A stretch of DNA of 42,248 bases. It comes from Burkholderiales bacterium (lineage in GTDB: Bacteria > Pseudomonadota > Gammaproteobacteria > Burkholderiales > Casimicrobiaceae). The notes beneath the pieces were generated by a model. It was not told the DNA's origin. It saw only the letters and a program-made list of their open reading frames with translations, and did no database searches. Position numbers and translations under genes: made by a program. Location of the stretch: positions 1-42,248 of the forward strand of contig JADZDA010000046.1 in NCBI GenBank assembly GCA_020851255.1. The letters are read 5' to 3'. This document shows positions 1 through 19,513 of the stretch, piece after piece. How positions within the stretch are numbered: the first letter of the stretch is position 1; each line of letters begins with the position of its first letter.

Positions 1-465
1 AGGCTGCGCAATCTCGGCGGCATCATCATCATCGACTTCATCGACATGGAGAACGCCGACCACCGCGCGGCGGTGCTCTCCGAGCTGAACCGCGCGCTGG
101 AGCGCGACCGCACGCGGCTCACGGTGAACGGCTTCACGCAGTTGGGCCTGGTCGAGATGACCCGCAAGCGCACGCGCGAGTCCCTCGCGCACGTGCTGTG
201 CGAGCCGTGTCCGACCTGCAAGGGGCGCGGCATCCTCAAGACGCCGCAGACGGTCTGCTACGAGATCCTGCGCGAGATCCTGCGCGAATCGAAGCAGTTC
301 AACGCCCGCGAGTTCCGCATCCTCGCCGCGCAGCCGGTCATCGACATGTTCCTCGACGAGGAGTCGCCGAGCCTCGCCGGCCTGGGCGATTTCATCGGCA
401 AGCCGATCTCGCTGCAGGTCGAGACGCTCTACACGCAGGAGCAGTTCGACATCGTCCTCATGTAG
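1..465 (+). CDS. rng: Ribonuclease G, C-terminal part (5' end outside window)
   Basis: The reading frame is open from base 1 and encodes the last 154 residues of an RNase E/G family endoribonuclease, which matures the 16S rRNA 5' end and takes part in mRNA decay. Visible hallmarks are the hydrophobic GGIIIIDFIDM strand carrying catalytic-domain acidic residues, the TQLGLVEMTRKR segment, and the CEPCPTCKGRG zinc-link motif (CPxCxG) that holds the dimer together in this family. The frame ends soon after the catalytic core with no long acidic tail, which fits RNase G (about 490 aa) and not RNase E. The ATG at 46 given by the ORF track is internal. The following gene starts 59 bp downstream on the same strand. 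Confidence 0.95.
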   Translation, partial: RLRNLGGIIIIDFIDMENADHRAAVLSELNRALERDRTRLTVNGFTQLGLVEMTRKRTRESLAHVLCEPCPTCKGRGILKTPQTVCYEILREILRESKQFNAREFRILAAQPVIDMFLDEESPSLAGLGDFIGKPISLQVETLYTQEQFDIVLM

Positions 466-524
466 CGCCGGCCGGGCGCGAACCGCGCCCCCGCAGAAGC
501 CGGGCACGGCCCGCCATCGCCCCG

Positions 525-1172
525 ATGACCCGACCGCCGGAAGTCACGCTCGACCACCTCGTCGTCGCCGGCGCGACGCTCGCCCAGGCGATCGAGTGGT
601 TCGCCGACCTCACCGGCGTCGCCGCGCGTCCCGGCGGCCGGCACGAGGCGATGGGCACGCACAACGCGCTCGTCCGCCTCGGTCCGCGCCTCTATCTCGA
701 ACTGATCGCGGTCGATCCGGAAGGCGTGCGGCCCGCGCGGCCGCGCTGGTTCGACCTCGACGAGCCCGCGCTCGTCGAGGCGATCGGCGAGCGGCCCCGC
801 CTGATCCACTGGGTCGCCCGCACCGACGACATCGCGCGCGCGGTCGCTGCGGCGAAACACGCGCCCGGGCCGGTGCTCCCGTTCTCCCGCGGCGACTATC
901 GCTGGCGCATCACGGTTCCCGACGACGGCCGGCGCCCGGGCGACGGCCTCGTGCCCACGCTGATCCAGTGGGACGTCCCGATCCACCCCGCCGACCGGTT
1001 GCCCGACGACGGCGGGTCCCTGGTCGAGCTCGCCGGTTCCCATCCGTCGCCGGACACGATCCGCGCCGCGCACGCGGCACTGGGCGCGCCCTACGCGGTA
1101 CGCGTGACCTGGGACGCGAAGCCGCGGCTCGCGGCGATGCTGCGCACGCCGCGCGGCCTGGTCACGCTGTAG
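525..1172 (+). CDS. VOC/glyoxalase-like domain protein
   Basis: This 215-aa protein belongs to the glyoxalase-like (Glyoxalase_3 type) branch of the vicinal-oxygen-chelate fold. It opens with LDHLVVAG, the usual first strand with a metal-binding-type His, followed by a helix (ATLAQAIEWFADLTG) and the GTHNALVRLG loop, which is very typical of this subfamily. The LIHWVARTDD strand marks the second half. The substrate is unknown. The ORF track extends the frame back to 198, but that part overlaps rng in another frame; the ATG at 525 gives the normal VOC start. It sits between rng and an enolase-superfamily gene on the same strand. Confidence 0.85.
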   Translation: MTRPPEVTLDHLVVAGATLAQAIEWFADLTGVAARPGGRHEAMGTHNALVRLGPRLYLELIAVDPEGVRPARPRWFDLDEPALVEAIGERPRLIHWVARTDDIARAVAAAKHAPGPVLPFSRGDYRWRITVPDDGRRPGDGLVPTLIQWDVPIHPADRLPDDGGSLVELAGSHPSPDTIRAAHAALGAPYAVRVTWDAKPRLAAMLRTPRGLVTL

Positions 1173-1209
1173 AACCCGGGTTCCGCGTCCGCCGCACGCC
1201 CGTCCGCCG

Positions 1210-2376
1210 ATGCCCGCGATTCGAACGATCGAAGCGTACGCGGTCTCGCTGCCGCGGGACGTCCCCTATCTCGGTCCCCTCGGGCCCGGCGAGACCGTCA
1301 ACCGCAAGGGCTACATCGTACGTCGCGGCAACCGCACGATCTATCCGACCACGGACATGTCGGTGATCGTGCGCGCCGAGACCGCCGACGGCACGGTCGG
1401 CTGGGGCGAGACCTACGGCATCGTCGCGCCGCGGGCCACGCTCGCGATCCTGCGCGACGTGCTGATCCCGGTCGTCGAGGGGCACGATCCGCGCGACGCG
1501 GCGACGATCTACGACGACCTGTACGACCTCATGCGCGTGCGCGGCGCGTCCGGCGGCTACTACGGCGACGCGCTCGCCGCCATCGACATCGCGCTGTGGG
1601 ACCTCGCGGCGAAGGAGGCGGGCGTCCCGCTCGCAACGCTGGCCGGCGGAGCGCGCGTGGCGGAGGTGCCCGCGTACGTCTCCGGGCTGCCGAAGGCGAC
1701 GCTCTCCGAGCGCGTCGCGCTCGCCGCCGAATGGCGCGATCGCGGCTTTCGCGCGTTCAAGTACGCGGCGGCGGTGTCGCACGAGGGCGTCGCCGCCGAA
1801 ATGGCCGCGCTGCGCGAGGCGCTGGGCCCGGACCCGGACCTCGCCGTCGATCTGCACTGGAAGTATTCGGTCGGCGAGGCGCTGTCGGTGGCCCGCGGTG
1901 TCGCGCCGTCGCGCCCCTGGTTCATCGAGGCGCCCTGCGCGCCCGAGGACATCGACGCGCTCGCGCGCGTCGCGGCGGAATGCGGCCTGCCGGTGGCCGC
2001 GGGCGAGGAATGGCACAGCGTGCACGAGGCGCGGATGCGCCTGCCGCGCGCGCGGCTCGCGATCGTCCAGCCGGAGATGGGGCACACGGGCGTCTCGCAG
2101 TTCCTCGCGATCGCCGCGCTCGCCCGGGAGTGCGGCGCGCGGGTCGTCCCGCACGCGACCATCGGCGTCGGCATCTTCCTCGCGGCGAGCCTTCAGGTCG
2201 CCTCGACGCTCGACCACTGCCCGATGCACGAGTACCAGCCGTCGGTCTTCGATCGCAACGTCGAGCACGTCGACACGACGATGGCCTGCGCGGCCGGGCT
2301 CTACCGGCTTCCGCAGGGAGCCGGGCTGGGCGTCGAACCGCGGGCATCGCTCGACCGGTATCGACTGCCCGACTGA
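1210..2376 (+). CDS. Enolase-superfamily enzyme (mandelate racemase/muconate lactonizing type)
   Basis: This 388-aa protein has the two-domain architecture of the MR/MLE group: an N-terminal capping domain (about 1-135, with GWGETYG and AIDIALWDLAAKEAGVPL) and a TIM barrel. The metal ligands are readable in order: D214 (VDLHWKYS), E240 (FIEAPC) and E266/E267 (AAGEEWHS). K184 (FKYAAA) and H315 (VVPHATIG) are candidate general bases. Such enzymes dehydrate or racemise sugar acids, or cycloisomerise muconates. The nearby lactonase and aldolase-family genes favour a sugar-acid dehydratase, but specificity cannot be read from sequence. The start at 1210 follows the previous stop by 37 bp. The end of the gene carries a short duplicated tail (GCCCGACTGAT twice, 17 bp apart). 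Confidence 0.9.
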   Translation: MPAIRTIEAYAVSLPRDVPYLGPLGPGETVNRKGYIVRRGNRTIYPTTDMSVIVRAETADGTVGWGETYGIVAPRATLAILRDVLIPVVEGHDPRDAATIYDDLYDLMRVRGASGGYYGDALAAIDIALWDLAAKEAGVPLATLAGGARVAEVPAYVSGLPKATLSERVALAAEWRDRGFRAFKYAAAVSHEGVAAEMAALREALGPDPDLAVDLHWKYSVGEALSVARGVAPSRPWFIEAPCAPEDIDALARVAAECGLPVAAGEEWHSVHEARMRLPRARLAIVQPEMGHTGVSQFLAIAALARECGARVVPHATIGVGIFLAASLQVASTLDHCPMHEYQPSVFDRNVEHVDTTMACAAGLYRLPQGAGLGVEPRASLDRYRLPD

Positions 2377-2390
2377 TTCGACCGCCCGAC

Positions 2391-2411
2391 TGATCGCGCG
2401 ACGCGCGATCA
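2391..2411 (+). terminator. Hairpin after the enolase-superfamily gene
   Basis: TGATCGCGC and GCGCGATCA form a perfect 9-bp stem with a 3-nt loop, 14 bp past the stop codon. No T-run follows, so it could be a transcript-stabilising hairpin or a weak terminator instead of a classic intrinsic one. Confidence 0.45.
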
Positions 2412-2571
2412 CCGGGTCCGCGACCTGGCGCCCGAGGCGAGGGGCGTTCCGTCGGCCGTCCCCGGGGCCGTCCCCGGATCGAAGGCAGGTCCGATCTGTC
2501 ACAATGGGGGCCGCCGCCTGCCGCCGGAGGGCGCCGGGCGCCCTACCCACCCCGCGACGAGGATCGACCCG

Positions 2572-2739
2572 ATGGCCAAGCCGAACTACGAATTCCAGAA
2601 GCGACAGCGCGAACTCGCCAAGAAGAAGAAGAAGGAAGAGAAGCTACGCGCCAAGGCCGATGCCAAGGCGGCAGGGACCCGCAACGAGGAAGGCGAGCCG
2701 GTCGTCTCGGAGACCGATACGCCCGCCAACGCCGGCTAG
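2572..2739 (+). CDS. Small Lys/Glu-rich conserved protein
   Basis: This 55-aa ORF (MAKPNYEFQKRQRELAKKKK...) is below the ORF-track cut-off. It starts 11 nt after a GAGGAT-like element and ends at a TAG at 2737. The N-terminal half is a strongly basic, helix-forming segment built from an AAG-codon run; the C-terminal half is acidic and polar (EEGEPVVSETD). Very similar short proteins starting MAKPNY-FxKRQRxLAKKKKxEEK occur widely in betaproteobacteria as hypothetical proteins, from my memory of the family. The function is unknown; the charge pattern would suit nucleic-acid or ribosome contact, which is speculation. Confidence 0.75.
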   Translation: MAKPNYEFQKRQRELAKKKKKEEKLRAKADAKAAGTRNEEGEPVVSETDTPANAG

Positions 2740-2821
2740 GACCGCCGCGATCCGCCGCCCGACCGCGGACACCCCCGCCGTCGAAGGCGCGCCGGACGAA
2801 TCGGCGGAACTATCGGCGGGA

Positions 2822-3655
2822 CTATTGCTTGACCGCCCCGGACGTGAGTCCGGACACGAGGAACGGTTCGAGCAGCAGGAACAGCACGAGCATCGGCGCC
2901 AGCGACACGACACCGGCCGCCATCAGCGCCGGCCAGTCGACCAGGTACTCGCCGACGAACGACTGCAGGCCGACGGTCACGACCCAGTGATCCGGCTTCG
3001 TGACCAGCGTGCGCGCGAGGACGAACTCGCTCCACGACACGATCGCGAGATAGATGCCGCAGGCCGCGAGCCCGGGCCGCGCGAGCGGCAGGATCACGTA
3101 CCAGAGTGTCTGCATCGGCGTACAGCCGTCGATCGCGGCCGCCTGCTCGAGCTCGCGCGGCAGCGTGTCGAAGAACCCCTTCATCATCCAGGTGGCGAAC
3201 GGAACGCCGACCGCGACGTTCGCCAGCACGAGCCCGGCCAGGCTGTCGATCAGCCCGATCGTCGTGTACATGAAAAAGAACGGGATGACGACGAGGCTGC
3301 CCGGCAGCATCTTCGACAGCAGCAGCGTCGCGCCGGCGACGCGCTGGGCCGGCGTGCGGAAGCGCGACAGCGAATAGCCGGCGAGCGTGGAGACGACGAG
3401 GCTCATCGCGACCGAACCGGCGACGACGATCGCGCTGTTCGCGAGCCACACGAACACCGGGCGCCGCCGGAACACCTCGACATAGGACGCGAACGAGATC
3501 GCGTCGACGGGCGGCACCAGCGGCGGCTGGCGCGACAGCACCAGCGACGACGGCAGCACGCTGGTGACGAACATCCAGTAGATCGGGAACAGCACGATCG
3601 CGACCACCGCCGCCGCGAGCGCGGCGAGCGTCCATCGCCGGGCGGCCGCGCTCAC
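2822..3655 (-). CDS. ABC transporter permease, carbohydrate type (MalG-like)
   Basis: This 277-aa inner-membrane protein has about six hydrophobic segments and the EAA loop that contacts the ATPase (ELEQAAAIDGCTPMQTLWYVILPLARPG), typical of the MalG/CUT1 permease subunit. I chose the GTG at 3655, which overlaps the TGA of the upstream permease gene by 4 bp (GTGA) and implies translational coupling. It is the last gene of the operon aldolase, binding protein, permease, permease. No ATP-binding subunit follows: the next gene on this side is the convergent small ORF at 2572-2739. Confidence 0.9.
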   Translation of the reverse strand: MSAAARRWTLAALAAAVVAIVLFPIYWMFVTSVLPSSLVLSRQPPLVPPVDAISFASYVEVFRRRPVFVWLANSAIVVAGSVAMSLVVSTLAGYSLSRFRTPAQRVAGATLLLSKMLPGSLVVIPFFFMYTTIGLIDSLAGLVLANVAVGVPFATWMMKGFFDTLPRELEQAAAIDGCTPMQTLWYVILPLARPGLAACGIYLAIVSWSEFVLARTLVTKPDHWVVTVGLQSFVGEYLVDWPALMAAGVVSLAPMLVLFLLLEPFLVSGLTSGAVKQ

Positions 3656-4548
3656 CGGAACTCCTCCTTCAATCCGCGCATCGCCAGCGCGACGACGATC
3701 GCGGCGGTGGCGAGCATCAGCACGCCGAGCGCCGCGGCGGTCCCGAACCGGAAGCTCGCGAACGCCTCGCGGTAGACGAGGATGCCCAGTGTCTCGGTCG
3801 CGCCGGCGGGTCCGCCGCCGGTCGAGGCGTAGATGATGTCGAATTCGCGGAACGTCCACAGCGCGTTCAGCAGCACCGCGAGCATCGCCGGGCGCCGGAT
3901 GCCCGGCCAGGTCACGTGGCGGAACTGCTGCCAGGCGCTCGCGCCGTCGACGCGCGCCGCCTCGTAGAGCGCCGCGGGGATCCCCTGCAGCGCCGCGAGG
4001 ATCGTGATCGCGAAGAACGGGAAACTCTTCCAGACCGTCGGCACGATCACCGCGAGCATCGCGGTATCGGCGTCCACGAACCACGCGAGGTCGGTCGACA
4101 GGAGTCCGGCGCGGCGCAGCACCGAGTTGGCCACGCCGAACGACGCGTCGAGCATCCACAGGAACGTGACGCTGACGATGACGCCCGGCACGGCCCACGG
4201 CAGCAACAGCAGGCTGCGCAGCCACCGGCGCGCGGGAAAGACCCGGTTGAACAGCAGCGCGACGAGGAGTCCGAAGGTGAACGCCGGTGCGAGCGTGCCG
4301 GCCGTGTAGACCGTCGAGTGCGCGAACGCCGACCAGGTCGCCGGGTCCGCGAGCACGCGCTCGAAGTTCGCCAGCCCGAGCGGGCGCGACATCAACTGGT
4401 CGAGCGCGAGCGCGCGCCCGGGCCGCAGGCTCATCTGCACGACGATCCAGATCGGCCAGGCGACGAGCAGCGCGACCGCCACGAACGCCGGCGCGAGCAG
4501 CGCCCAGGCGAGTCGGCGCTCGGCGGACTTGTGCGAGATCGCGGCCAT
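3652..4548 (-). CDS. ABC transporter permease, carbohydrate type (MalF-like)
   Basis: This 298-aa integral membrane protein has a short cytoplasmic N-terminus, a first helix (AWALLAPAFVAVALLVAWPIW), several further membrane segments and the EAA loop EAARVDGASAWQQFRHVTWP. It matches the MalF/UgpA-type partner subunit of sugar ABC importers (CUT1 family), in the short form lacking the large periplasmic loop of enterobacterial MalF. It ends overlapping the next permease by 4 bp. It lies 51 bp downstream of the binding-protein gene. Confidence 0.9.
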   Translation of the reverse strand: MAAISHKSAERRLAWALLAPAFVAVALLVAWPIWIVVQMSLRPGRALALDQLMSRPLGLANFERVLADPATWSAFAHSTVYTAGTLAPAFTFGLLVALLFNRVFPARRWLRSLLLLPWAVPGVIVSVTFLWMLDASFGVANSVLRRAGLLSTDLAWFVDADTAMLAVIVPTVWKSFPFFAITILAALQGIPAALYEAARVDGASAWQQFRHVTWPGIRRPAMLAVLLNALWTFREFDIIYASTGGGPAGATETLGILVYREAFASFRFGTAAALGVLMLATAAIVVALAMRGLKEEFR

Positions 4549-4599
4549 CGTCCGTCGCTGGGGCCGATCCCGTCGGGTCCGGCAGGCGACCCCGATTCC

Positions 4600-5841
4600 C
4601 TAGCGGAGCGGGATCTGCCGGTCGAGGTCCGACTGGAGGTCCGCGAGCACCTTCGCGGTCGGTTCCTGCGTCGAGATCATCTTCATCGCGGCCCGCGTCA
4701 CCGCGGTGGCGAAGTCGTTGTAGCCGGCGCGCACCGCCTGCACCTCCGGGAACAGGTTCCTCGCCTTCGCGGCCTCGTCGTTGATCGCCTTGAGCTGCGG
4801 CTTCGCCGCGATGTCGGCCGGCCCGAGCACGCCCTTGCGCGGCGCCGGCGAGCCGGTGAGCGCGTAGCGGTGCTGCCACTCGGGCGAGGCGGCCATCGCG
4901 ATGAAGTTCCACACCGCGTCCTTCCTGCGCGCGTCGGTCTTCGCCGCGATGTGCAGGCTGTTGCTCGCGCCGCCCGGGGTCGCCGGGAACGGCAGCGCGC
5001 CGACCTTGAGCTGCGGCTTCACGCCGGCCTGCGCCTTCTCGACCGCGCCCCAGACCCAGGGTCCGTCGCGCAGGAACGCGACCTTGCCGTCGACGAAGAG
5101 CTGGCGCGCGGTCGCCGAGTTCGTGCCCTTGGGCGCGTAACCGACCGACTGGCGCCAGCCGTCGACCGCCTTCACCACGGCGGGATCGGTGAAGTTGTAC
5201 CGGCCGCCCTTGAGCCAGTCGGCGCCCGAGCCGATCACCCAGCTCGCCATCTCCACGACCATGTTCGGATGCTCGGCGGTGATCGTCGCGAGGCCGAACT
5301 GTCCCTTCCCCGCGTCGGTCGTCGCCTTCATCGCCGCGAGCCATTCGTCCGGCGTCTTCGGCAGCGCGACCTTCGCGTCCCGGAGCTTCTGCTCGTTGTA
5401 GAAGAGCATCCCGCCGTAACCCATCAGCAGCACGCCCTGGGTCTTGCCGTTCCAGTTCATCTCCGACTGCAGCGGCGTCCAGTTCGCCGCGATGTCGGTG
5501 GACCTGAGTCGCTCGTCCAGCGGTTCGAGCCAGCCCTGGTCGGCGAAGCTCGCGAAGTCGCGCGACGGCAGGTGCACGATGTCCGGCGGCGTCCCCGCCG
5601 CGAAGCGCACGGTCATCTGCTTGACGAACTGCGCGAACGGCACCTGCTGGAGGTTCACCTTCACGCCCGGATACTTCGCCTCGTAGGCGGCGATCAGATC
5701 CTTCCACCAGGTCGAGATGCCGGGCTCCTCGGCCTGCCAGGTCGGGAAGTCGAGCGTCGTCTGCGCGTGCGTCACGGGCGACAGCACGGTCGTCGCGGCG
5801 AGGGCGGCGAGCGCCAGCGCGCGTTTCCACGGTTTCGTCAT
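4600..5841 (-). CDS. Extracellular solute-binding protein, sugar type
   Basis: This 413-aa protein has a clear Sec signal peptide (MTKPWKRALALAALAATTVLSPVTHAQ, cleavage after HA or AQ) followed by a family-1 solute-binding fold (MalE/UgpB type). Typical landmarks are WWKDLIAAYEAKYPGVKV, PDIVHLPSRDF, LFVDGKVAFLRDGPWVWG and the hinge-region aromatics. It should capture the ligand in the periplasm for the two permeases encoded downstream. The start at 5841 has an AAGGAG site 6 nt upstream. The ligand is not readable; neighbouring sugar-acid genes suggest an oligosaccharide, sugar acid or polyol. Confidence 0.92.
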   Translation of the reverse strand: MTKPWKRALALAALAATTVLSPVTHAQTTLDFPTWQAEEPGISTWWKDLIAAYEAKYPGVKVNLQQVPFAQFVKQMTVRFAAGTPPDIVHLPSRDFASFADQGWLEPLDERLRSTDIAANWTPLQSEMNWNGKTQGVLLMGYGGMLFYNEQKLRDAKVALPKTPDEWLAAMKATTDAGKGQFGLATITAEHPNMVVEMASWVIGSGADWLKGGRYNFTDPAVVKAVDGWRQSVGYAPKGTNSATARQLFVDGKVAFLRDGPWVWGAVEKAQAGVKPQLKVGALPFPATPGGASNSLHIAAKTDARRKDAVWNFIAMAASPEWQHRYALTGSPAPRKGVLGPADIAAKPQLKAINDEAAKARNLFPEVQAVRAGYNDFATAVTRAAMKMISTQEPTAKVLADLQSDLDRQIPLR

Positions 5842-5912
5842 CGCAGTCTCCTTCGTTCCTGTGTCGCGTGCCCGTACGCGCGCCGGGACCGGCGTCGGTT
5901 CGATCGGGCGTC

Positions 5913-6869
5913 TCACCGGGGGGCCGATCCGGAGCGTATCCCCGGAACCGGGTGCGTGGCGATGCCGGGCGCATCGGGCAGGACATCGGCGGCGTCGGCC
6001 AGCAGGTGGTCGAGTTCGCGCAGGTCGCCCGCGTCGAGCGACGGGCCGGCCGCGCGCACCCGCGTCGCGGCGATCACGCCGCGGCGCCTCAGCACTTCCT
6101 TGGTCATCGCCATCCGGAACACCGCCTGGAAATTGAGCAGCGGCAGCATCCGGTCGAACAACCGCCTCGCGCCCTTCGCATCGCCGGCGTGATGGGCCGC
6201 CCACAGGCGGACGAACAGGTCCGCGAGTTCCGCCGCCGGCATCGTTCCGCAGGCGCCGCGCGCGAGCTCGTCGGGAAGATACCGGCCGCCGGCGCCGCCG
6301 AAGACGCCGGCCAGCCCGGACGGCGCGAGCGCGAGTATCCGCGTGATCCGCTGGCCGCAGGGCAGGGTCTCCTCCTTGACGTACGCGACCCCCGGGACCT
6401 CGCCGATGATCGCGGCCACGCGCTCCGGCGCCAGTCCGCAGCCCGCGGGCGGCGGCGCGTTCTGCAGGATCACCGGCAATCCGGCCCGGGCGACGCGCCG
6501 GTAGTACTCGAGCTGTCCTGCCGCGTCGTCCCTGAGCGCCGGCGGCAGCATCGCCATCACCGCATCGGCGCCCACCCGGCGCGCATGCGCCGCGTGGCCC
6601 TCGGCCGCGGCCGCGTCGGCCGCCGACGCGCCGACGACGAACCCGACGCGCCCGCGGTTGGCCGCGGCGACCGCCTCGACCAGCGACGCGCGCTCGGCCG
6701 GCGCGAGCGTCTCGAATTCGCTGGCGACGCCGGGGAAGACGATGCCGTCGACGCCCGAGTCGACGAGGAAATCGACGAGCCGGCCGAGGTCGGCCACGGC
6801 CGGCGAGCCGTCGGCGGCGAACGGCGTCGCGACGATCGGCCAGACGCCGGCCAGCCGGCGCGCCGTCAC
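5913..6869 (-). CDS. Dihydrodipicolinate synthase-family (class I) aldolase or lyase
   Basis: This 318-aa TIM-barrel protein belongs to the DHDPS/N-acetylneuraminate lyase superfamily. The Schiff-base lysine is in VAYVKEET (about K165), and the substrate-carboxylate loop GVASE occupies the GTTGE position. The catalytic Tyr of the usual YN(V/I)P motif appears as Gln (ILQNAPPPAG, about Q136), so chemistry may differ from true DHDPS. Context (sugar ABC importer, lactonase, enolase-superfamily dehydratase) suggests a 2-keto-3-deoxy sugar-acid aldolase or dehydratase, not lysine biosynthesis. A GTG start at 6869 is supported by GGGAGG about 7 nt upstream. It is first in the minus-strand operon. 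Confidence 0.85.
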   Translation of the reverse strand: MTARRLAGVWPIVATPFAADGSPAVADLGRLVDFLVDSGVDGIVFPGVASEFETLAPAERASLVEAVAAANRGRVGFVVGASAADAAAAEGHAAHARRVGADAVMAMLPPALRDDAAGQLEYYRRVARAGLPVILQNAPPPAGCGLAPERVAAIIGEVPGVAYVKEETLPCGQRITRILALAPSGLAGVFGGAGGRYLPDELARGACGTMPAAELADLFVRLWAAHHAGDAKGARRLFDRMLPLLNFQAVFRMAMTKEVLRRRGVIAATRVRAAGPSLDAGDLRELDHLLADAADVLPDAPGIATHPVPGIRSGSAPR

Positions 6870-6888
6870 GCCCGCCTCCCGGTGACGC

Positions 6889-6916
6889 TTGTCCGGATCC
6901 CCACAATTCCCATAAT
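6889..6916 (+). promoter_or_regulatory. Sigma70-like promoter of the IclR/SMP-30 fusion gene
   Basis: A TTGTCC -35-like element (6889-6894), a 16-bp spacer and a CATAAT -10 element (6911-6916, 5 of 6 to TATAAT) predict a start near 6923, about 34 nt before the ATG at 6957. The -10 lies inside the first operator-like palindrome, so binding there would block transcription. On the opposite strand TATTAT in the same palindrome could be the -10 of the aldolase/ABC operon, although no good -35 was found for it. Confidence 0.5.
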
Positions 6917-6943
6917 ATGGGACATCTAGTCCATAAGCTGGGA
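6908..6943. promoter_or_regulatory. Two tandem operator-like palindromes in the divergent promoter
   Basis: TCCCATAATATGGGA (6908-6922) is a perfect inverted repeat with 7-bp arms around one central base. GTCCATAAGCTGGGA (6929-6943) matches it at 11 of 15 positions. Their centres are 21 bp apart, two helical turns, so both would face the same side of the DNA. They are AT-rich islands in otherwise very GC-rich DNA between the divergent aldolase/ABC operon and the IclR-fusion gene. I infer that they bind the IclR-type product of the adjacent gene. Confidence 0.65.
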
Positions 6944-6956
6944 TCAGTCTCCCGCC

Positions 6957-8633
6957 ATGCCCCGTCCCCGTCAAGGGTCCCCGTCCGGCGGCGTCGCCGG
7001 CGCCGCCGCGCTCGACAAGGCCTTCGGCCTGGTCGACCGGATCGCCGCGTCGACGGCGCCTCCGACCGCCGTCGAGCTGATGGCGGCGACCGCGCTGCCG
7101 CGTTCGACGCTGTTCCGGCTCCTCGCCGCGCTCGAGTCGCGCGGTTGGATCCGCCGCGACGGGCGTGACCGCGGCTGGCGGCTCGGGTTCCGGCTGTTCG
7201 AACTCGCGCAGGCCGCCTGGTCGGAGTTCGACCTGCGCGACGCCGCCGCCGCGGAGCTCGCGACGCTGGCCGCCGCGACCGGCGAGACCGCGCTGCTCGC
7301 GGTGATCGACGGCGAGTCGTGCGTGATCGTCGGCGGCGCCGACGGCACGCAGACGATCCGGCACGCGTCCGCGCCCGGGCAACGCACGCGCTGGGACCTG
7401 GGCGCCGCGGGCGTCGCGCTCGTCGCCTTCGCCGATCCCCGCGTGCGCGACACGCTGATCGCCGCGCTGCCCGCAGAGCGCCGCGAGCCGATGCGCGCGA
7501 CCCTCGAACTCGCGCGCGGCCGCGGCTACGCCGCGTTCGGCCCGGACGGGAACGACGTCGCCGAGGTCGCGGCGCCGGTGCTGGACATCCACGGGATGTC
7601 GGCGGCGGCGCTCGCACTCGCCGGCCCGGCGTTCCGGCTCGACGCGCGGCGCCTGCACGCGCTCGCGCCGATCGCGATGGCCGCGGCGCGCCGCGTCGCG
7701 CACAACGCCGGCGGCAGCGCGACCTCGCTCGCGCCCGCGCCGCGTCCCGGTCCGCCGTCGCGCGGCGTGCGCGTCGTCGATCCCGCGGCGGCATTGCTGG
7801 GCGAGGCGCCGTACTGGTCGACGCGCGACGGTGCGCTCTGGTGGATCGACATGCTCGAGCCGTCGTTGATCCGGCATGTCCCCGGTGCCCGCGGCGGTGC
7901 GAGCGAGCGCTGGTCGCTGCCGCGACTCGCGAGCGCGGCGGTCCCGCGCAAACGCGGCGGTGTCGTGCTGCTGCAGCCCGACGGACTCGTGCGCCACGAC
8001 CCCGGGCGCGGCACCGGCGAGCCGTTCGCCCACCCCGAGCGCGACCATCCGGACCATCGCTACAACGATGCCAAGTGCGACGCCCGCGGCCGGATGCTCG
8101 TCGGCACGCTGGACCCCGCCGGCCGCCCGAATCGCGGCAGCCTGTGGCGCGTCGACGCCGACGGGTCGAGCGAGCGGCTGGACACCGGGTTCACCGTCGC
8201 CAACGGCCTCGCGTTCTCCGCCGACGGACGCACGCTGTGGTTCGCCGACTCCGGCCACCGGGTCGTCTACGCCTACGACTACGACGCGCGACGCGGCCGC
8301 GTGTCCCGGCGGCGCCGTTTCGTCGGCTACACCGGCGATGTCAAGCCCGACGGCCTCGCCGCCGACGCGGACGGCGGACTGTGGGTCGCGGTATGGGACG
8401 GCTGGCGGATCGAGCGCTACGACGCGCGCGGCCGGCTCGTGCGCACGATCCGGCTGCCGGTACCCCGGCCGACCAGCGTCGCGTTCGGCGGCGACCGCCT
8501 CTCGACGCTCTACGTGACCAGCGCCCGCGCCCGTCTCGATCCGGACTCGCTCGCGCAGGCGCCGCTGTCCGGCGCGTTGTTCGCCGTCGACGCCGGCGTC
8601 CGCGGGCTGCCGGTCGCCGCGTACGCCGGATAG
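6957..8633 (+). CDS. IclR-type regulator fused to SMP-30/gluconolactonase
   Basis: This 558-aa single ORF holds two full-length domains. Residues about 16-80 form an IclR winged helix (TAVELMAATALPRSTLFRLLAALESRGW), and 85-250 form the IclR effector domain (LATLAAATGETALLAV, APGQRTRWDLGAAG, GYAAFGPDGNDVAEVAAPVLD). A Pro/Ala linker (about 251-270) leads to a six-bladed SMP-30/regucalcin-like lactonase (about 271-558). The lactonase retains the metal and active-site pattern E283 (LGEAPYW), N370 (RYNDAK), N416 (VANGLAF) and D465 (KPDGLA). The product should both sense a ligand while bound to DNA and hydrolyse a sugar lactone, or sense by hydrolysis. The frame is continuous with no internal stop. 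It is transcribed divergently from the aldolase/ABC operon. Confidence 0.93.
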   Translation: MPRPRQGSPSGGVAGAAALDKAFGLVDRIAASTAPPTAVELMAATALPRSTLFRLLAALESRGWIRRDGRDRGWRLGFRLFELAQAAWSEFDLRDAAAAELATLAAATGETALLAVIDGESCVIVGGADGTQTIRHASAPGQRTRWDLGAAGVALVAFADPRVRDTLIAALPAERREPMRATLELARGRGYAAFGPDGNDVAEVAAPVLDIHGMSAAALALAGPAFRLDARRLHALAPIAMAAARRVAHNAGGSATSLAPAPRPGPPSRGVRVVDPAAALLGEAPYWSTRDGALWWIDMLEPSLIRHVPGARGGASERWSLPRLASAAVPRKRGGVVLLQPDGLVRHDPGRGTGEPFAHPERDHPDHRYNDAKCDARGRMLVGTLDPAGRPNRGSLWRVDADGSSERLDTGFTVANGLAFSADGRTLWFADSGHRVVYAYDYDARRGRVSRRRRFVGYTGDVKPDGLAADADGGLWVAVWDGWRIERYDARGRLVRTIRLPVPRPTSVAFGGDRLSTLYVTSARARLDPDSLAQAPLSGALFAVDAGVRGLPVAAYAG

Positions 8634-8700
8634 CGCCGCGTTCCTGCGACCGCGCGCGGGCCGCCCCGACGCGGGCCAACCGGCTCCGGCGCCCGCCGGG

Positions 8701-8997
8701 TCAGCGCACGACGCGGTCGGCGCGCCTGAGCAGCGACGCGGGGACCGCGAGGCCGATCGCCCGTGCGGTCTTCAGGTTGACCACGAGTTCGAACGTGGAC
8801 GGCTGCACCACCGGCAGGTCGCCGGGACGCGTGCCGGAGAGTATGCGGTCGACCGCCTCGGCGATGCGGTCGTAGGACGCCGCCAGATTCGCGCCGTAGG
8901 CCATCAAGCCGCCGTCGTCGGCCTGCTCCGGCCACTCGTAGACCGCCGGCAGCCGATGCTTGTTCGCGAGCGCGATGATCGCCGCGCGGTCGCGCAT
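8701..8997 (-). pseudogene. C-terminal remnant of an ABC substrate-binding protein (PF04392-type)
   Basis: The 98-codon frame corresponds only to the end of a roughly 320-aa binding protein of the TrpX-like/ABC_sub_bind family. IIALANKHRLPAVYEW, GGLMAYGANLAASYDRIAEAVDRIL and the family's terminal run FELVVNLKTARAIGLAVPASLL are all recognisable. The ATG at 8997 is an internal Met of the ancestral gene; the N-terminal two-thirds and the signal peptide are absent, and the TRIC gene ends 45 bp away. A second relic of the same family lies at 22996-23233 on the other strand. Expression is unlikely to give a functional protein. Confidence 0.8.
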
Positions 8998-9042
8998 GAA
9001 AGACGTGTGCGCGGCGACGGCCGGGGCGCGGGCGCGCAGCGA

Positions 9043-9657
9043 TCACGCGGGCGGCCCCCGGAACGTCGGCAGCGCGACCCCCCGGACGATCGCCCACCAG
9101 CGCAACGCGAACACCGTCGCCATGCCGAGCGCGAAGGACAGGCCGCGATCGAGCCCGGCCGCCGCGGCGACGAGGTAGAGCACGATGCCGGCGATCGCGG
9201 CGGTCGCGTAGATGTCGCGGCGCAGGATCAGCGGTACCTCGCCGGAGAGCGCATCGCGCAGCACGCCGCCGGCGACGCCCGAGATCGTGCCCAGGATCAC
9301 GACGGCCGCGGGCGACACGGCCGCGTCCTCGGCGATCCGCGCGCCGGTCAGCGCGAACAGCGCGAGGCCGAGCGCGTCGGCGGCGAGGAAGACGCGTCCG
9401 CCGAACGGCCGGAAGCGCAACCAGACGAGCGTGCCCGCCGTCGCCGCGACGATGACGGCGACGTAGACCGGATCGGCGATCCAGAAGATCGGATGGCGAT
9501 CGAGCAGGACATCGCGCAGCGTGCCGCCGCCGACGGCGGTCGCCGCCGCGACGACGAAGACGCCGAAGAGATCGAGCCCGCGCCCGCCGACCGCGAGCAC
9601 GCCGCTCGCGGCGAACACCGCGACGCCGACGAGGTCGAGGACCTTCAGCACGTCCAT
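9043..9657 (-). CDS. Trimeric intracellular cation channel (TRIC/UPF0126) family protein
   Basis: This 204-aa, seven-helix membrane protein is made of two homologous UPF0126 halves. Each half carries the family signature of a glycine-rich helix followed by GG-LRD: TAVGGGTLRDVLLDRHP and SGVAGGVLRDALSGEVP. Members such as YadS/YicG are bacterial TRIC-type cation channels or glycine uptake proteins. The ATG at 9657 starts the first helix MDVLKVLDLVGVAVFAASG directly, as is normal. Context gives no pathway clue; it is flanked by a binding-protein relic and small membrane-protein genes. Confidence 0.92.
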   Translation of the reverse strand: MDVLKVLDLVGVAVFAASGVLAVGGRGLDLFGVFVVAAATAVGGGTLRDVLLDRHPIFWIADPVYVAVIVAATAGTLVWLRFRPFGGRVFLAADALGLALFALTGARIAEDAAVSPAAVVILGTISGVAGGVLRDALSGEVPLILRRDIYATAAIAGIVLYLVAAAAGLDRGLSFALGMATVFALRWWAIVRGVALPTFRGPPA

Positions 9658-9786
9658 GGACGAGACAGGGTGCCGTGCGGCGCCGGCACACCGCGCTCCC
9701 GCGCGAATTCGGACGGCGCGGGCGCGCCGGCGCGGAGATCGTCGATGGTCATCGGCCGCGATTGACGCACGCCGCCGGAGCGGGCG

Positions 9787-10041
9787 TCAATAGCGGGCGC
9801 CGAAGCGGTCGTAGAGGAACAGCGCGGTGCCGACGGCGAGGGCGATCGGCAGCGGCGAAACCAGCGCCGCCGCGACCCAGTGCCAACCGGCGGTCGCGTC
9901 GTGCCATTGCACCGACGCCGCCAGCAGGAGCAGCGTCGCGACGCCGGCGGCGAGCGAGGCGCGCCGGGCGTCGCGCAGCAGCAGCTCGCAGGCGCACCCG
10001 ACCGCGACCGGCATCAGCACCAGGACGATCAGCGGTTCCAT
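9787..10041 (-). CDS. Small membrane protein, unknown function
   Basis: An 84-aa protein with probably three hydrophobic segments (LIVLVLMPVAVGCACEL, LAAGVATLLLLAASV, WVAAALVSPLPIALAVGTALFLYD) and almost no soluble part. The ORF track starts at 10074, but the internal ATG at 10041 follows a GGGAGG site by 4-5 nt and begins the first helix, so I prefer it. No family was recognised. The 181 bp upstream, to the rhodanese gene, contain no gene that I can support. Confidence 0.65.
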   Translation of the reverse strand: MEPLIVLVLMPVAVGCACELLLRDARRASLAAGVATLLLLAASVQWHDATAGWHWVAAALVSPLPIALAVGTALFLYDRFGARY

Positions 10042-10222
10042 CGGCCCTCCCCGCCCGGCGACTTCCGGGCGCACTGCGGGATCGAGGCTACGCCGGCGAC
10101 CCGACGATGGTCAACCTGGCCCGGATTCCGCGGCCGCGAGCGGGGCTTCCCGCCCTCGCCCCGGGGCGTCCCCGCTTCGCGCGTCCTCGTCGCCGGCATT
10201 CCAGGGCCGGCGATCGATCCGC

Positions 10223-10738
10223 CTACCGGTGCGCGCGCGTCCCCTCGAGGGGAATCCGCGTCGTGCGCACGTCGACGAGCGGACCGAGTTCCCAGACGTT
10301 CGTGTAGCCGTACGCGGTGAGCGTCGTGTACGTGTGCACGTTGAGCGACGCGGCCGGCGCCTTGGTCGCGAAGGCGACCGGCTCGCCTTCGAAATTGTTG
10401 TTGCAGTAGATCAGCACGCGCGTCGTCTTCGCGGGCAGGAGCGCGGCGAGTTCCGCCTCGGTGACATCGGGAAACGGCAGGTTCTTCGCGCCCCGCACGT
10501 GCAGCTCCGCGTAGCGCTCGCGGCTGCGCGCGTCGAGGACGACCGTCCCCGGCTCCGCGGCCATCCGCAGGAGCCTCGCCTCGTCGACCCGGCGCTGCGC
10601 GCGCAGCTTCCCGGCCGCCACGACCTCGCGCTCGAACGCCGCGTAGTCGATCAGGCGATTGCCCGGATCGGCGCTCACGGTCGACAGCGGGCAGCACGCG
10701 ATCGTCACGGCCGCGGCCGCGTGGACGAAGGCTCTCAT
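10223..10738 (-). CDS. Periplasmic rhodanese-like domain protein
   Basis: This 171-aa protein has an N-terminal signal peptide (MRAFVHAAAAVTIACCPLSTVSA) and one rhodanese domain: the GTVVLDARSRERYAELHVRGAKNLPF entry and the active-site loop IYCNNNFEGEP. The loop Cys is present, so a persulfide-carrying (sulfurtransferase) activity is possible. The loop lacks the CRxGxR pattern of classic thiosulfate sulfurtransferases, and the substrate is unknown. The start at 10738 has a GAGGAGA element upstream. It probably acts in the periplasm. Confidence 0.85.
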   Translation of the reverse strand: MRAFVHAAAAVTIACCPLSTVSADPGNRLIDYAAFEREVVAAGKLRAQRRVDEARLLRMAAEPGTVVLDARSRERYAELHVRGAKNLPFPDVTEAELAALLPAKTTRVLIYCNNNFEGEPVAFATKAPAASLNVHTYTTLTAYGYTNVWELGPLVDVRTTRIPLEGTRAHR

Positions 10739-10824
10739 CGCTCTCTCCTCGCAGGCGCCGACGGGTCGACGGCGCCCGGACTCAACGGCCGAGCCCGCGC
10801 GCGCGATGACAGCGCGAAACGCGG

Positions 10825-11118
10825 TCAGGCGCGCGGCGGTGCCGGTCGCCGGCGGACGATCGCGACGACCGCGGCGATCGTCAGGAACAGCAGCAGAGGG
10901 TAGACGAGCAGCAGGTCGACGCGGATGTTGCATTCGCCGCTGCACAGCAGCCGGAGCTTCATGCCGAGCTCGTAGGGAAAGTACGCGAGCCAGGCGAGCG
11001 CGGCCGCGATCACGATCGCGTGTCGATGGGTGAACCAGGCCAGGACGAGCAGCGCGGCCGGTGCGATCGCGAGCCACGGGTAGCCGACGAAGATGCCGAG
11101 CAACACGCCGATGTCCAT
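10825..11118 (-). CDS. Small conserved membrane protein, unknown function
   Basis: A 97-aa protein with three predicted membrane helices (IGVLLGIFVGYPWLAIAPAALLVLAWF, AIVIAAALAWLAYFPYE, LLVYPLLLFLTIAAVVAIV). A conserved-looking loop with two cysteines and a charged pair (RLLCSGECNIRVDLL) lies between helices two and three. This loop and the length resemble a group of uncharacterised proteobacterial inner-membrane proteins; I cannot name a function. The 86 bp before the rhodanese start hold a possible shared transcript. Confidence 0.75.
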   Translation of the reverse strand: MDIGVLLGIFVGYPWLAIAPAALLVLAWFTHRHAIVIAAALAWLAYFPYELGMKLRLLCSGECNIRVDLLLVYPLLLFLTIAAVVAIVRRRPAPPRA

Positions 11119-11207
11119 TCAGCCTCCGCGCAGGTCGGCCCCGGTCGATGGCGGAACGCGCGTCCGCCGCGCCGCCCCGGCCGACGGCGTCCGGGCGATC
11201 CGCGGCT

Positions 11208-11594
11208 TCAGCGCACGATCCGCCAGCGCGCCGGCTCCCGGCTCTGGTAGAGCTCGATCAGCAGGTCGTCCGGGCCGGCGACCATCACGTACCGGAATTT
11301 CGGCTCGTCGCGGACCGGGTTGCGCAATGCCGCCCCGTGCGCCTTCATGTGCGCGACCAACGCGTCCAGGTCGTCGGTCTCGAGTCCGATGTGATGGACG
11401 GCGCCTCCGCGCGGCGCCTTCGGCGGCTGGTCGTAGAGGTGGACGAACGCGCGGCCGAGCGCGAGCCGGACGTTGCGCGTGCCGGCGGCCGGCTCGTCCC
11501 ACACGACCTCGGCGGCGAACATCGTGCGGAAGTACGCGATCGTCGCGTCGACGTCCGACGCGAACAGGTGGACGTGATCGAGGCCGACGCGCAT
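11208..11594 (-). CDS. VOC family (glyoxalase/dioxygenase-fold) protein
   Basis: This 128-aa, single-module vicinal-oxygen-chelate protein carries candidate metal ligands H (LDHVHLFASD), H (VHHIGLETDD) and E (LLIELYQS), in the spacing expected when two monomers pair to form the active site. The strand order and the terminal IELYQ are typical of methylmalonyl-CoA epimerase or glyoxalase-like proteins. The substrate cannot be assigned. It lies 22 bp upstream of the gene-end side of aqpZ, on the same strand. Confidence 0.88.
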   Translation of the reverse strand: MRVGLDHVHLFASDVDATIAYFRTMFAAEVVWDEPAAGTRNVRLALGRAFVHLYDQPPKAPRGGAVHHIGLETDDLDALVAHMKAHGAALRNPVRDEPKFRYVMVAGPDDLLIELYQSREPARWRIVR

Positions 11595-11616
11595 CGTCCG
11601 CCCGTCGCGCCCGGAT

Positions 11617-12318
11617 TCAGCCGCGCTCGTCGGCGCCCAGCCACCGCCAGACGCCCCCGGCGATCGCGGCGCCGGCGACCGGCGCGATCCAGAACATCCA
11701 CAGTTGCGCGATCGCCCAGCCGCCGACGAACAACGCGGGCCCGGTGCTGCGCGCCGGATTGACCGACGTGTTGGTGACCGGGATGCTGACCAGGTGGATC
11801 AGCGTGAGCGCGAGCCCGATCGCGATCGGCGCGAATCCCGCGGCGGCGCGCCTGTCGGTCGCGCCCAGGATCACGATCAAGAACATGAACGTCATCACGA
11901 CCTCGGTGACGAACGACGACGCGGCCGAGTACTTGCCCGGCGAATGGTCGGCGTAACCGTTGGACGCGAGGCCGCCGGCCAGGTCGAAGCCGGCCTTGCC
12001 GCTCGCGATGAAATACAGGACGCCGGCGGCGATCACCGCGCCCAGCACCTGCGCGATCACGTAGGGCAGCACGTCGGACGCCTTGAAACGCCCGGCGGCG
12101 GTCAGGCCGACGGTCACCGCGGGGTTCAAGTGGCAGCCGGAGATCGGACCGATCGCGTAGGCCATCGTGAGCACGGTCAGGCCGAAGGCCAGCGACACGC
12201 CCAGCAACCCGATCCCGACGCCGGGGAACGCCGCGGCGAGCACCGCGCTCCCGCATCCTCCCAGCACCAGCCAGAACGTACCCAGGCACTCTGCGGCGAA
12301 TCGCTGCGTCATCGGCAT
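11617..12318 (-). CDS. aqpZ: Aquaporin Z
   Basis: This 233-aa, six-helix water channel has both NPA boxes ([11 protein letters not shown] and [11 protein letters not shown]) and the AqpZ-type N-terminus [21 protein letters not shown]. The Arg after the second NPA and the Ile/Thr-lined filter sequence point to a water-selective channel and not a glycerol facilitator. Three in-frame ATGs cluster at the start; the one at 12318 is 6 nt from GGGGAGG, while the one at 12324 abuts it, so 12318 is chosen over the longer frame in the ORF track (12411). Confidence 0.95.
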
Positions 12319-12460
12319 GGACATCCTCCCCAGGGTTGTCGTCGCCGCCCGTCCAGCGCGGACGTCGGGGCGACCGGCCGACATGCTACCGGGAGTCGGA
12401 GTCGGCGGCACCTGCCGGGCGTGCGGCCCGCCGCCCCGAGGTCGCGGGGCGCCGCGAACA

Positions 12461-13213
12461 TCACCCGGAGACGAGCGGCGCGAGTTCGAGCACCGCGACC
12501 GTCGACGCGCCTCCGGTCGCGTAGAGGAACGGCCCGTCCCAGGTGTGCGGCGACAGCGCCTCGGCGAGCGTCATCGCCACCGGGATCAGCAGCATCGCGA
12601 GCGCGTACTCGGGGACCGTGAAATGGCCGCGCAACACGTGCACCGCCAGCACACCGCTCGCGGCCACGCAGGCGCTGCCCTCGAGGCTGCGCGTGTACGT
12701 CCGGTCGCTGAAGAGGGCGCGCACGCGGTAGCGGTGCCGCCCGAACCGCACGCCCACCGGCTCGGCGAGTCCATCGCCGATCGCGGCGACCAGGACCGTG
12801 ATGTACACCAGTGGCCGCTGGTCGTAGCGGTCGAGCCAGACCACGACCGCGACCAGCACCGCGTAGGTCGCGAGCGCCTGCGTCGTGATCCACACGAGCG
12901 TATGGGGCCGGTCTTCGGGACGATCGATCGACGCGTACGCGGTGGACAGGAAGTCCGAGCGCGACCGCAGCGGCAGGGCGAAGGTCGCGATGCACGCGAC
13001 GAAAACGAGTCCGCTGCCCACGACAGTCGCGATCGATGCAGGGTAGGGAATCCAGTCCGCGAGGGCGAGCGGGACGAAAAAGAGGACGAAGTGGAGGATC
13101 TTGCGGGTGTAATTGACGCGCGCGCCGCGCGCGAGCACCCAGCGGCCGAGCAGCCAGGCGGTTGCGTAGAGCGCGGCGACACGCAATACCTCGTTGACGA
13201 TCCACGCGGACAT
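12461..13213 (-). CDS. Phytol/dolichol kinase-like (SEC59 family) membrane protein
   Basis: This 250-aa, multi-helix membrane protein has the CTP-dependent polyprenol-kinase signature: an early [10 protein letters not shown] element and, later, [22 protein letters not shown] followed by YTRSLEGS. This is the D-G-x-A-E/G ... FG-H/Y ... R/K-S-xEG pattern shared by phytol, farnesol and dolichol kinases and, more distantly, CdsA. In bacteria such enzymes phosphorylate isoprenoid alcohols; the substrate here is unknown. The ATG at 13213 starts just before the first helix. Confidence 0.8.
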
Positions 13214-13287
13214 CCCGGCAGCATATCGCGTTCGTGTCGAAGCGCGACCGGCGGGCCCGCCGCCGATGCGCTCCGAACGGACGCGAC

Positions 13288-13692
13288 TCAGCGGCCGGTG
13301 ACCGCGCGCGACGGGCGCGCGAACGCGAGCACGTGCCCGTCCGGATCGAGCGAGTACGCGGCGAAATCGCCCCAGTCGCGCATCGCGGGTGCGGACAGCT
13401 CGACCGCACCGGCGGCGAGTGCGCGGGCGTGGGCGGCGGCGACGTCGTCGACGTGCAGGTAGATCTCGGCGCGCGGCACGCCGGCGGCGCGCGCAGGATC
13501 GGGAAGACGCTCGCCCAGCAGCCGGCGGATGCCGGCGACCGGCATCAGCCCGAGCACCGCGCCGCCGCCGAGCGCGAACTCGGTCATGCCGGGCACGTCG
13601 AGCCGCGGCCGCGAATCCAGCGCGCGCACGTAGAAGTCGGCGCTCGCGCGCTGATCGGCGACGTAGAGGATGAAGTGCGCGGAGTCGCCCAT
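13288..13692 (-). CDS. VOC family protein
   Basis: This 134-aa glyoxalase-fold protein starts with the first strand FILYVADQRASADFYVRALD and ends with the usual SLDPDGHVLAFA strand, where the acidic metal ligand is replaced by Ala/Phe (GHVLAFARP). With few classic ligands visible, it could be a binding/resistance-type VOC protein instead of a metalloenzyme. It is the second small VOC gene within 2.5 kb but is not closely similar to the one at 11208-11594. Confidence 0.85.
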   Translation of the reverse strand: MGDSAHFILYVADQRASADFYVRALDSRPRLDVPGMTEFALGGGAVLGLMPVAGIRRLLGERLPDPARAAGVPRAEIYLHVDDVAAAHARALAAGAVELSAPAMRDWGDFAAYSLDPDGHVLAFARPSRAVTGR

Positions 13693-13716
13693 CGCCGTCG
13701 AACGCGTCCGCGCCGC

Positions 13717-14115
13717 TCAGCGCGGCTTGCGCTTCAGCGACTCGACCCGCGCGCGGTGGTCGGCGAGCCCGGCCCAGGACACCGCGCCGGTCGTCGCGTG
13801 GACGAGGATCGGGTCGGGCGCGGCCCGGCCGGCGACGCCGAACTTCGCGGGGAACGCCCAGTGCTCGCCGCGCAGGATGCCCTCGCCGACCGACCCCTCG
13901 ACGGCGATCTCGCGGGCGAAGTAGCGGGTCGCGATCGCGTGCGCGGCCTGCGCCGATATCGCGGGGCCGGCGGGGTCTGCGGCGTCGCCGGAGATCGGCA
14001 TCAGGCCCAGACCGGCGATGAGCGCGAGACCCGCGACCTCGAGAGCGGTACGGCGCGACCGGTCGCCGCCGCCCTTCGCGGAGCCGGTGCGAATTCGGCG
14101 ACCGTGCCGTGCCAT
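13717..14115 (-). CDS. Hypothetical exported or membrane-anchored protein
   Basis: A 132-aa product (from the ATG at 14115) with a basic N-terminus, one hydrophobic segment (EVAGLALIAGLGLMPISGDAA) that may be a signal peptide or anchor, and a small C-terminal domain. The strand WAFPAKFG and the hairpin PILVHATTGAVSW resemble the small NTF2/PepSY-like folds with a terminal TG-turn; I cannot name a family. The ORF track uses 14160. Neither start has a strong ribosome-binding site. Confidence 0.6.
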   Translation of the reverse strand: MARHGRRIRTGSAKGGGDRSRRTALEVAGLALIAGLGLMPISGDAADPAGPAISAQAAHAIATRYFAREIAVEGSVGEGILRGEHWAFPAKFGVAGRAAPDPILVHATTGAVSWAGLADHRARVESLKRKPR

Positions 14116-14221
14116 CGTCCGGCAGGATAGCGCGATCGGTGCCGTCCGGGTGCCATGCAACGCTACCGCGCCGGCGAGCCGGACGCCCGGCGCGAAGTTC
14201 CCCGGGCCGGATGACGCGTCG

Positions 14222-14803
14222 TCAGGCGAACTTTCGGGTCACGAGTCCGCACTCGGCGCTGCAGCGCGCGAGCAGCGCCTCCACGTAACCCCGGAAACTG
14301 CGCCGGACGAGCAGCTCGAACTCCGACGCCGCGCTCGCCTTCCACAACCAGACCGACGCCTTGAAGAAGTGCGAGCCCGCGCAGGCGTCGACGCCGAAGA
14401 CGCGCGGGTGCAGATCGAGCGGGCAGCCGTGCGCCAGCACGTCGAGCACCGGAACGCCCGACAGGTGCAGCACCGTGTAGCCGCCGGACACGTCGGTCGC
14501 CGCGTGATGGATGCCGGCGAGCGCGTCGTGCAGCCTGCGGACGGTATCGACCGCGGGCTCCTGCGCTCCGACGAGGAACCAGTCGTCCGGCCCGACCCAG
14601 ACCACGCGCCCGCGCGCGGACACGATCGTCCGGCCGACCTCGGGCAGGTCGATGCCGATCACGCCTTGAACGCGTTCGCGGAACCCGGCGTTCGACGGAT
14701 CGCCGCGCAGGTTGACGATCGACAGGCCCTCGCGCCAACCGGCGATGAGCGCCTCGTCCCGGCGGGACTGTCCCGCCCTGTTCATGGTCTTGGCATCAGG
14801 CAT
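14222..14803 (-). CDS. soxG: Sarcosine oxidase gamma subunit
   Basis: This 193-aa small subunit of heterotetrameric sarcosine oxidase shows the family's GcvT-related features: ALIAGWREGLSIVNLRGD, WVGPDDWFLV, TDVSGGYTVLHLSG and HFFKASVWLWK. It is the last gene of soxBDAG, and its start overlaps the end of soxA by 8 bp. In the complex it has a structural role and shields the substrate channel. No further folate or serine genes (glyA, purU, folD), which often accompany this operon, follow in this window. Confidence 0.92.
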   Translation of the reverse strand: MPDAKTMNRAGQSRRDEALIAGWREGLSIVNLRGDPSNAGFRERVQGVIGIDLPEVGRTIVSARGRVVWVGPDDWFLVGAQEPAVDTVRRLHDALAGIHHAATDVSGGYTVLHLSGVPVLDVLAHGCPLDLHPRVFGVDACAGSHFFKASVWLWKASAASEFELLVRRSFRGYVEALLARCSAECGLVTRKFA

Positions 14804-17789: not shown

Positions 17790-18079
17790 GCCGCGCTCCC
17801 CGCCGCGCCGGCCGGCGCCGCTTCGCCGATCTTCCAGGTCGCGTGGAACCGGGTGGTCACCGTGTCGCGCAGCGCGTGGAACCAGCGGCCGCAGCCGCCC
17901 GCGTGGCGCCATTGCTCGTGGTGGACGCCCTTGGGATTGCGCCGGAAGAACACGTAGTCGCCCCACTCCTCGTCGGTCATCCGGTCGCTGTCGACCGGGC
18001 GCACGACGCCGCCTTCGCCGCCGTACGAGAACTCGGTCTCGGCGCGCGGGCCGCAATACGGACAGGTGATGAGCAGCAT
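17786..18079 (-). CDS. soxD: Sarcosine oxidase delta subunit
   Basis: This 97-aa zinc-binding small subunit has ITCPYCGPRAETEFSYGGE at the start, the DSDRMTDEEWGDYVFFRRNPKGVHHEQW core and the second metal-binding part HAGGCGRWF. The CPYC pair plus the later Cys and His supply zinc ligands. It lies between soxB (10 bp gap) and soxA (4 bp overlap) in the canonical B-D-A-G order. Confidence 0.95.
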   Translation of the reverse strand: MLLITCPYCGPRAETEFSYGGEGGVVRPVDSDRMTDEEWGDYVFFRRNPKGVHHEQWRHAGGCGRWFHALRDTVTTRFHATWKIGEAAPAGAAGSAA

Positions 18080-18089
18080 CGCTCGCTCC

Positions 18090-19334: not shown

Positions 19335-19405
19335 CGAATGCCTCCGCGGACGTCGGGCGGGACCGCGCTCGCCCCGGGGATCGAGCATGCCGACCCGGAC
19401 GACGG

Positions 19406-19432
19406 AACGGCAATGCCGTTTGCGACATTATC
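19406..19432 (-). promoter_or_regulatory. soxBDAG promoter with operator-like palindrome
   Basis: On the minus strand GATAAT (19427-19432) is a 5-of-6 -10 box with no recognisable -35, as expected of an activator-dependent promoter. Immediately downstream, AACGGCAATGCCGTT (19406-19420) is a perfect palindrome with 7-bp arms and a one-base centre, covering the predicted start. It is a good candidate binding site for a regulator of the operon, probably but not certainly the adjacent GlxA-type protein. Confidence 0.55.
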
Positions 19433-19513
19433 CGTGCTGTTTGCGGTGCCCGTCGACGGCGCGCAGGTCCGGCGCGAACATCGCCGTCGGTGCGGTCCGG
19501 CTGGTGCGGAAAT

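Follow-up and report, generated by a model that had tools for sequence, protein, structure and literature searches.

The fusion gene and its neighbours

The DNA analysed here (hereafter the window) spans positions 1–42,248 of contig JADZDA010000046.1 from a Burkholderiales bacterium of the Casimicrobiaceae (assembly GCA_020851255.1). One open frame on the forward strand (6957–8633) runs from an ATG start to a TAG stop, the only stop in its translation, and encodes an IclR-SMP-30 fusion protein of 558 residues. The earlier note on this DNA had read a complete IclR repressor and a complete lactonase in this one 558-codon ORF, and all three Pfam domains indeed score above their cut-offs: (i) an HTH_IclR DNA-binding domain (PF09339) at aa 18–69 (7008–7163, forward strand; 42.4 bits against a cut-off of 22, E 6e-11); (ii) an IclR effector-binding domain (PF01614) at aa 86–248 (7212–7700, forward strand; 54 bits against 24, E 1.9e-14, profile positions 2–173 of 174); and (iii) an SMP-30/gluconolactonase six-bladed propeller at aa 273–558 (7773–8630, forward strand), in which the SGL match (PF08450) at aa 281–524 covers the whole profile (1–246 of 246) with 246 bits and E 5.6e-73.

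The genes on the other side of the fusion start resemble those of a sugar-acid pathway. Divergent from the fusion lies a DHDPS-family gene resembling keto-deoxy acid aldolases/dehydratases (5913–6869, reverse strand; Pfam DHDPS, E 3e-28), followed on the same strand by a CUT1-type sugar ABC transporter substrate-binding protein (4600–5841; Pfam SBP_bac_1, E 2.8e-35) and two CUT1-type ABC permeases (3652–4548 and 2822–3655, together 2822–4548; NCBIfam UgpA/MalF-like and MalG/GlcU-like, below the equivalog cut-offs). A mandelate-racemase/enolase-superfamily (MR/MLE) sugar-acid dehydratase (1210–2376, forward strand; Pfam MR_MLE_C, E 2.9e-46) completes the cluster; among NCBIfam models it resembles galactonate dehydratase best, at 143 bits against a cut-off of 311. 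Beyond the fusion, a 98-aa frame (8701–8997, reverse strand) aligns with the ABC_sub_bind profile solely over its final third (202–293) and is probably a truncated remnant. Further on, sarcosine-oxidase-like genes (14796–19334, reverse strand) encode a 997-aa alpha-type protein (SO_alpha_A3, GCV_T) and a 414-aa DAO-family protein.

Domain organization and predicted structure

The N-terminal 250 aa agree with the IclR family layout, and their nearest NCBIfam models are BhcR, KdgR, PcaR and IclR, with scores far below the respective cut-offs. Standard IclR members have ∼250 aa and no enzyme domain (PMC8222616), whereas the fusion carries an extra one and reaches 558 aa because a C-terminal propeller is added. 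The two halves show a similar level of conservation among fusions. In the effector domain, 34 of 39 fusions have the K of a GK dipeptide that reads GV in the window (7410–7415, codons 152–153) and GL in a same-genus relative; effector binding or specificity may therefore have shifted.

The short Pro/Ala linker described earlier between the halves corresponds to aa 249–272 (7701–7772, forward strand), which are rich in Pro, Ala and Gly, and its length is 24–26 residues in 37 of the 39 fusions. A flexible linker of this composition, together with a GTG at codon 271 close to the junction, could suit a polypeptide that is split during or after translation, by a protease or through an internal start, into two ordinary proteins. 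We consider such a split very improbable, given that the only alternative starts near the junction in the window are GTG 271 and TTG 280, with no evident Shine–Dalgarno match before them.

An AlphaFold2 model of the fusion, built from a 14-row alignment (pLDDT 83.5, pTM 0.74), consists of a winged helix, an effector domain and a propeller, with very low confidence confined to the N-terminus, residues 85–91 and linker residues 251–258. In Foldseek searches, the N-terminal half matches the T. maritima IclR structure 1mkm (E 6e-18), and the C-terminal half matches the Caulobacter xylonolactonase 7plc (TMt 0.94, 1.5 Å, 34% identity); no solved chain spanning both halves is among the best 50 matches listed. 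The metal-site pattern E283/N370/N416/D465 proposed in the earlier note lies at exactly those positions: none of the four residues varies in a 14-row alignment mixing fused and free lactonases, and 34 of 39 aligned fusions retain E/N/N/D. The fusion thus resembles the SMP-30/gluconolactonase family, whose nearest solved members are Caulobacter xylonolactonase (7plb/7plc) and regucalcin, in its full propeller and conserved metal ligands, but these are free enzymes without a DNA-binding half.

Distribution and origin of the fusion

A frameshift introduced by assembly near 7700–7770 could in principle have joined two genes, a reading that we regard as virtually impossible and exclude. A genome of the same genus (G061, locus L042) encodes the full-length fusion in one frame with 66% identity over residues 2–542, and ∼40 more independent loci in alpha- and betaproteobacteria, including complete plasmids, carry it in one frame. 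Relatives with two genes separated by a stop at the junction were also sought, and no full-length relative has such a stop. Full-length relatives match the fusion at E values down to 1e-217, far beyond chance.

The two-domain architecture, when sought across genomes, recurs in tens of those sampled. One-frame, full-length fusions are present in Hydrogenophaga, a Comamonadaceae MAG and Devosia. Complete plasmids that carry them come from Roseomonas, Variovorax, Chelatococcus, Roseibium, Rhizobium, Marinovum, Microvirga, Terrarubrum, Bosea and Sinorhizobium meliloti 1021 (pSymA). On pSymA (NC_003037.1) the fusion, locus L031, lies at ∼389.2–391.0 kb. Many of the bacteria concerned are soil- and plant-associated, with the fusion inside operons for sugar-acid breakdown. 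Incidence is patchy: within the window's order at least 3 of 399 sampled genomes have the fusion, within its class at least 2 of 369 (window genome included) and within its family at least 2 of 64, both of these in the window's genus; in the order to which a Devosia genome belongs, the figure is at least 16 of 398 sampled genomes. These counts are lower bounds because scoring was confined to the top few candidates in each genome. The phage collection yielded no full-length match. Two arrangements with several copies were observed: at L079 (G1068 C20 174000–193900), two fusions face each other at a distance of ∼5 kb, separate sugar-transporter genes accompanying each of them, and genome G1001 carries three IclR-SMP-30 fusions.

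At one locus, in Devosia sp. A8/3-2 (L015), the fusion is broken between the HTH and the effector domain, and ABC genes next to it are likewise fragmented, reflecting either a decayed locus or sequence errors. Four further candidates with long upstream frames (L002, L019, L067 and L069) were rejected, their upstream parts resembling unrelated high-GC open frames by eye. The closest free lactonases (L062–L071) have no IclR match within 1.5 kb.

In a tree of the IclR domain, all 37 fused rows fall on one side of a branch with support of 95/79 that is recovered in 93% of bootstrap trees. This supports one origin, but the lactonase-domain tree has long branches and needs three label changes, so that one origin is likely, not proven; these sequences are most simply read as one ancient fusion event that later spread and was sometimes lost.

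Annotated copies are mostly named SMP-30/gluconolactonase/LRE family protein, and one is named after the IclR C-terminal domain. No paper describing an IclR-SMP-30 fusion was found in open-licence full texts, and the fusion is apparently a conserved, undescribed regulator–enzyme hybrid, though present in public genomes. This corrects the database naming, in which tens of likely regulators are hidden under an SMP-30/gluconolactonase family label.

Operon context

The same-genus genome keeps the gene order of the window, i.e. dehydratase, two permeases, binding protein and aldolase, then the divergent fusion. A dehydratase, a DHDPS enzyme and a CUT1 transporter beside a lactonase are arranged as in an aldonate operon of the De Ley–Doudoroff-type/non-phosphorylative kind. 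No ABC ATPase gene lies beside the window's CUT1-type transporter (2822–5841), and a similarity search of window positions 1–20000 returned no sugar dehydrogenase, which is present in many relatives; the pathway is therefore incomplete locally.

At most loci with enough flanking sequence, the fusion is accompanied by an MR/MLE dehydratase and a DHDPS enzyme, often with a CUT1 ABC transporter, an SDR dehydrogenase and a keto-deoxy-galactonate kinase in addition. A complete operon, frequent in relatives, consists of a binding protein, two permeases, an ATPase, an NAD-dependent epimerase-like dehydrogenase and the fusion, and continues with an SDR dehydrogenase, DHDPS, MR/MLE and 2-keto-3-deoxygalactonate kinase. 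Several relatives carry this kinase and a keto-deoxy-phosphogalactonate aldolase, and the two enzymes point to substrates of the galactonate type.

At loci with enough flank, the fusion operons showed no second SMP-30 gene, and in comparable dgo-like operons that lack the fusion (L094 and L095) free SMP-30 lactonases occupy its slot. Together these two observations provide the principal evidence that the lactonase half probably works as a pathway enzyme.

The divergent promoter and a candidate operator

The 87-bp gap between the aldolase and fusion genes contains TCCCATAATATGGGA, a perfect 15-bp palindrome (6908–6922) that we consider a candidate operator. It overlaps a promoter-like site, TTGTCC-16-CATAAT (6889–6916, forward strand), which was found by a consensus scan (9 of 12 matches, 0.0 expected) and is by itself no sign of function; this overlap is what suggests repression. 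The pattern TCCCATNNNATGGGA has exactly one copy in the window genome and one in the same-genus relative, in the same divergent gap, where the relative reads TCCCATATGATGGGA. By local shuffling, a perfect 15-bp palindrome arises somewhere in the 260 bp upstream in ∼4.5% of cases by chance, so that the operator claim rests on conservation of the palindrome (in one relative) and on its position.

Palindromes also lie upstream of other fusions, i.e. TGGAACTTAGTTCCA in L038, L050 and L052, TTGGAACTCGGTTCCAA in L047 and TTCCATTGAATGGAA in L010, and in one clade the palindrome sits directly between TTGACA and the −10 element. These three sequences resemble the published motif of IclR group 2, TGRAACAN1-2TGTTYCA (PMC8222616), from which the TCCCAT half-site of the window departs. 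Several fusions thus share with the IclR family palindromic sites of the TGRAAC/GTTYCA kind.

These sites bear on the idea that the lactonase alone works and that the IclR half, its regulatory role lost, persists as a passive dimerisation scaffold. Databases mostly label the protein simply as a lactonase, which would accord with it. We nevertheless judge it quite improbable, since the fusions conserve residues of the HTH (T51 and R54 are invariant in all 39) and IclR-type palindromes occur at the promoters of several of them.

Proposed function and comparison with known systems

Our results suggest that the fusion is probably a bifunctional protein, an autoregulated repressor that also serves the pathway as an enzyme, its C-terminal half performing the lactonase step of the operon. 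The fused frame, its two complete domains, the metal ligands, and the conserved operon surroundings and palindrome are read directly from the sequences, from which we infer DNA binding, lactone hydrolysis, the probable kind of sugar and inducer, and the resulting feedback. The IclR half, probably as a dimer or tetramer, would bind the palindrome between the fusion gene and the divergent aldolase–transporter operon and keep both transcription units low. The SMP-30 half would hydrolyse the sugar lactone of the pathway to an aldonate, which the adjoining dehydratase would convert to a 2-keto-3-deoxy acid for cleavage or dehydration by the DHDPS-type enzyme. A pathway intermediate bound in the IclR effector domain would lift repression, and sensor and lactonase would therefore rise together. 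Such feedback would be self-limiting if the lactone is the inducer, and self-reinforcing if the aldonate or the keto-deoxy acid is. The operon context and the operator-like palindrome agree with the earlier idea of a DNA-bound lactonase that removes its own inducer or monitors flux through the pathway.

Known IclR-family repressors of sugar-acid catabolism include KdgR, BhcR and IclR, and GalR is predicted for galactonate (PMC5507952); the fusion resembles them in its HTH and effector domains and its similar target operons. The closest functional parallel is Agrobacterium BlcR, an IclR-type repressor (3mq0) that governs the lactonase BlcC and whose repression is lifted by the lactone GBL and the downstream products GHB and SSA (PMC3907764). 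BlcR and BlcC, unlike the two halves of the fusion, are separate polypeptides, and BlcC is an AiiA-family lactonase and not a member of SMP-30. In architecture, i.e. a regulator and an enzyme in one polypeptide, the fusion is like PutA, which both binds DNA and acts as an enzyme in the pathway under its control. The domains and chemistry of PutA are unrelated to those of the fusion, and coupling is shown for PutA but inferred for the fusion. Regulator–enzyme hybrids are uncommon and are useful test cases for feedback within one molecule; this one is conserved over several bacterial orders, in recognisable sugar-acid operons and with a candidate operator.

A side branch without metal ligands

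Two fusions that form one branch, in Bosea sp. 685 (L036:7866–9593) and Devosia riboflavina (L110, G818 C7 127000–128860), have lost all metal-site residues and retain open propeller frames, and four others (L032, L060, L061 and L074) have lost some of the ligands. Between the former two, the IclR halves are 63% identical and the propellers 42%, whereas in the other fusion pairs compared the identities of the two halves are similar or more nearly so. The pair may thus represent candidate pseudo-lactonase sensors or slow decay, as the sequences fit either.

The retained open propellers, the partial ligand losses and the nearly constant length of the flexible linker all favour an SMP-30 half that mainly binds the lactone or aldonate and signals to the HTH, with catalysis secondary or lost. 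As a general account of the fusion this seems unlikely: the window protein and 34 of 39 fusions retain their catalytic ligands, and the faster divergence of the propeller in the ligand-less pair also fits decay. A somewhat speculative extension of the bifunctional reading is that the fusions are a conserved class of repressor in which the fused lactonase determines how much of its own ligand the repressor meets at the promoter, making operon output a readout of lactone flux, and that the propeller of the side branch is now a purely sensory pseudo-enzyme. The ligand-less branch offers a natural comparison of catalysis with sensing.
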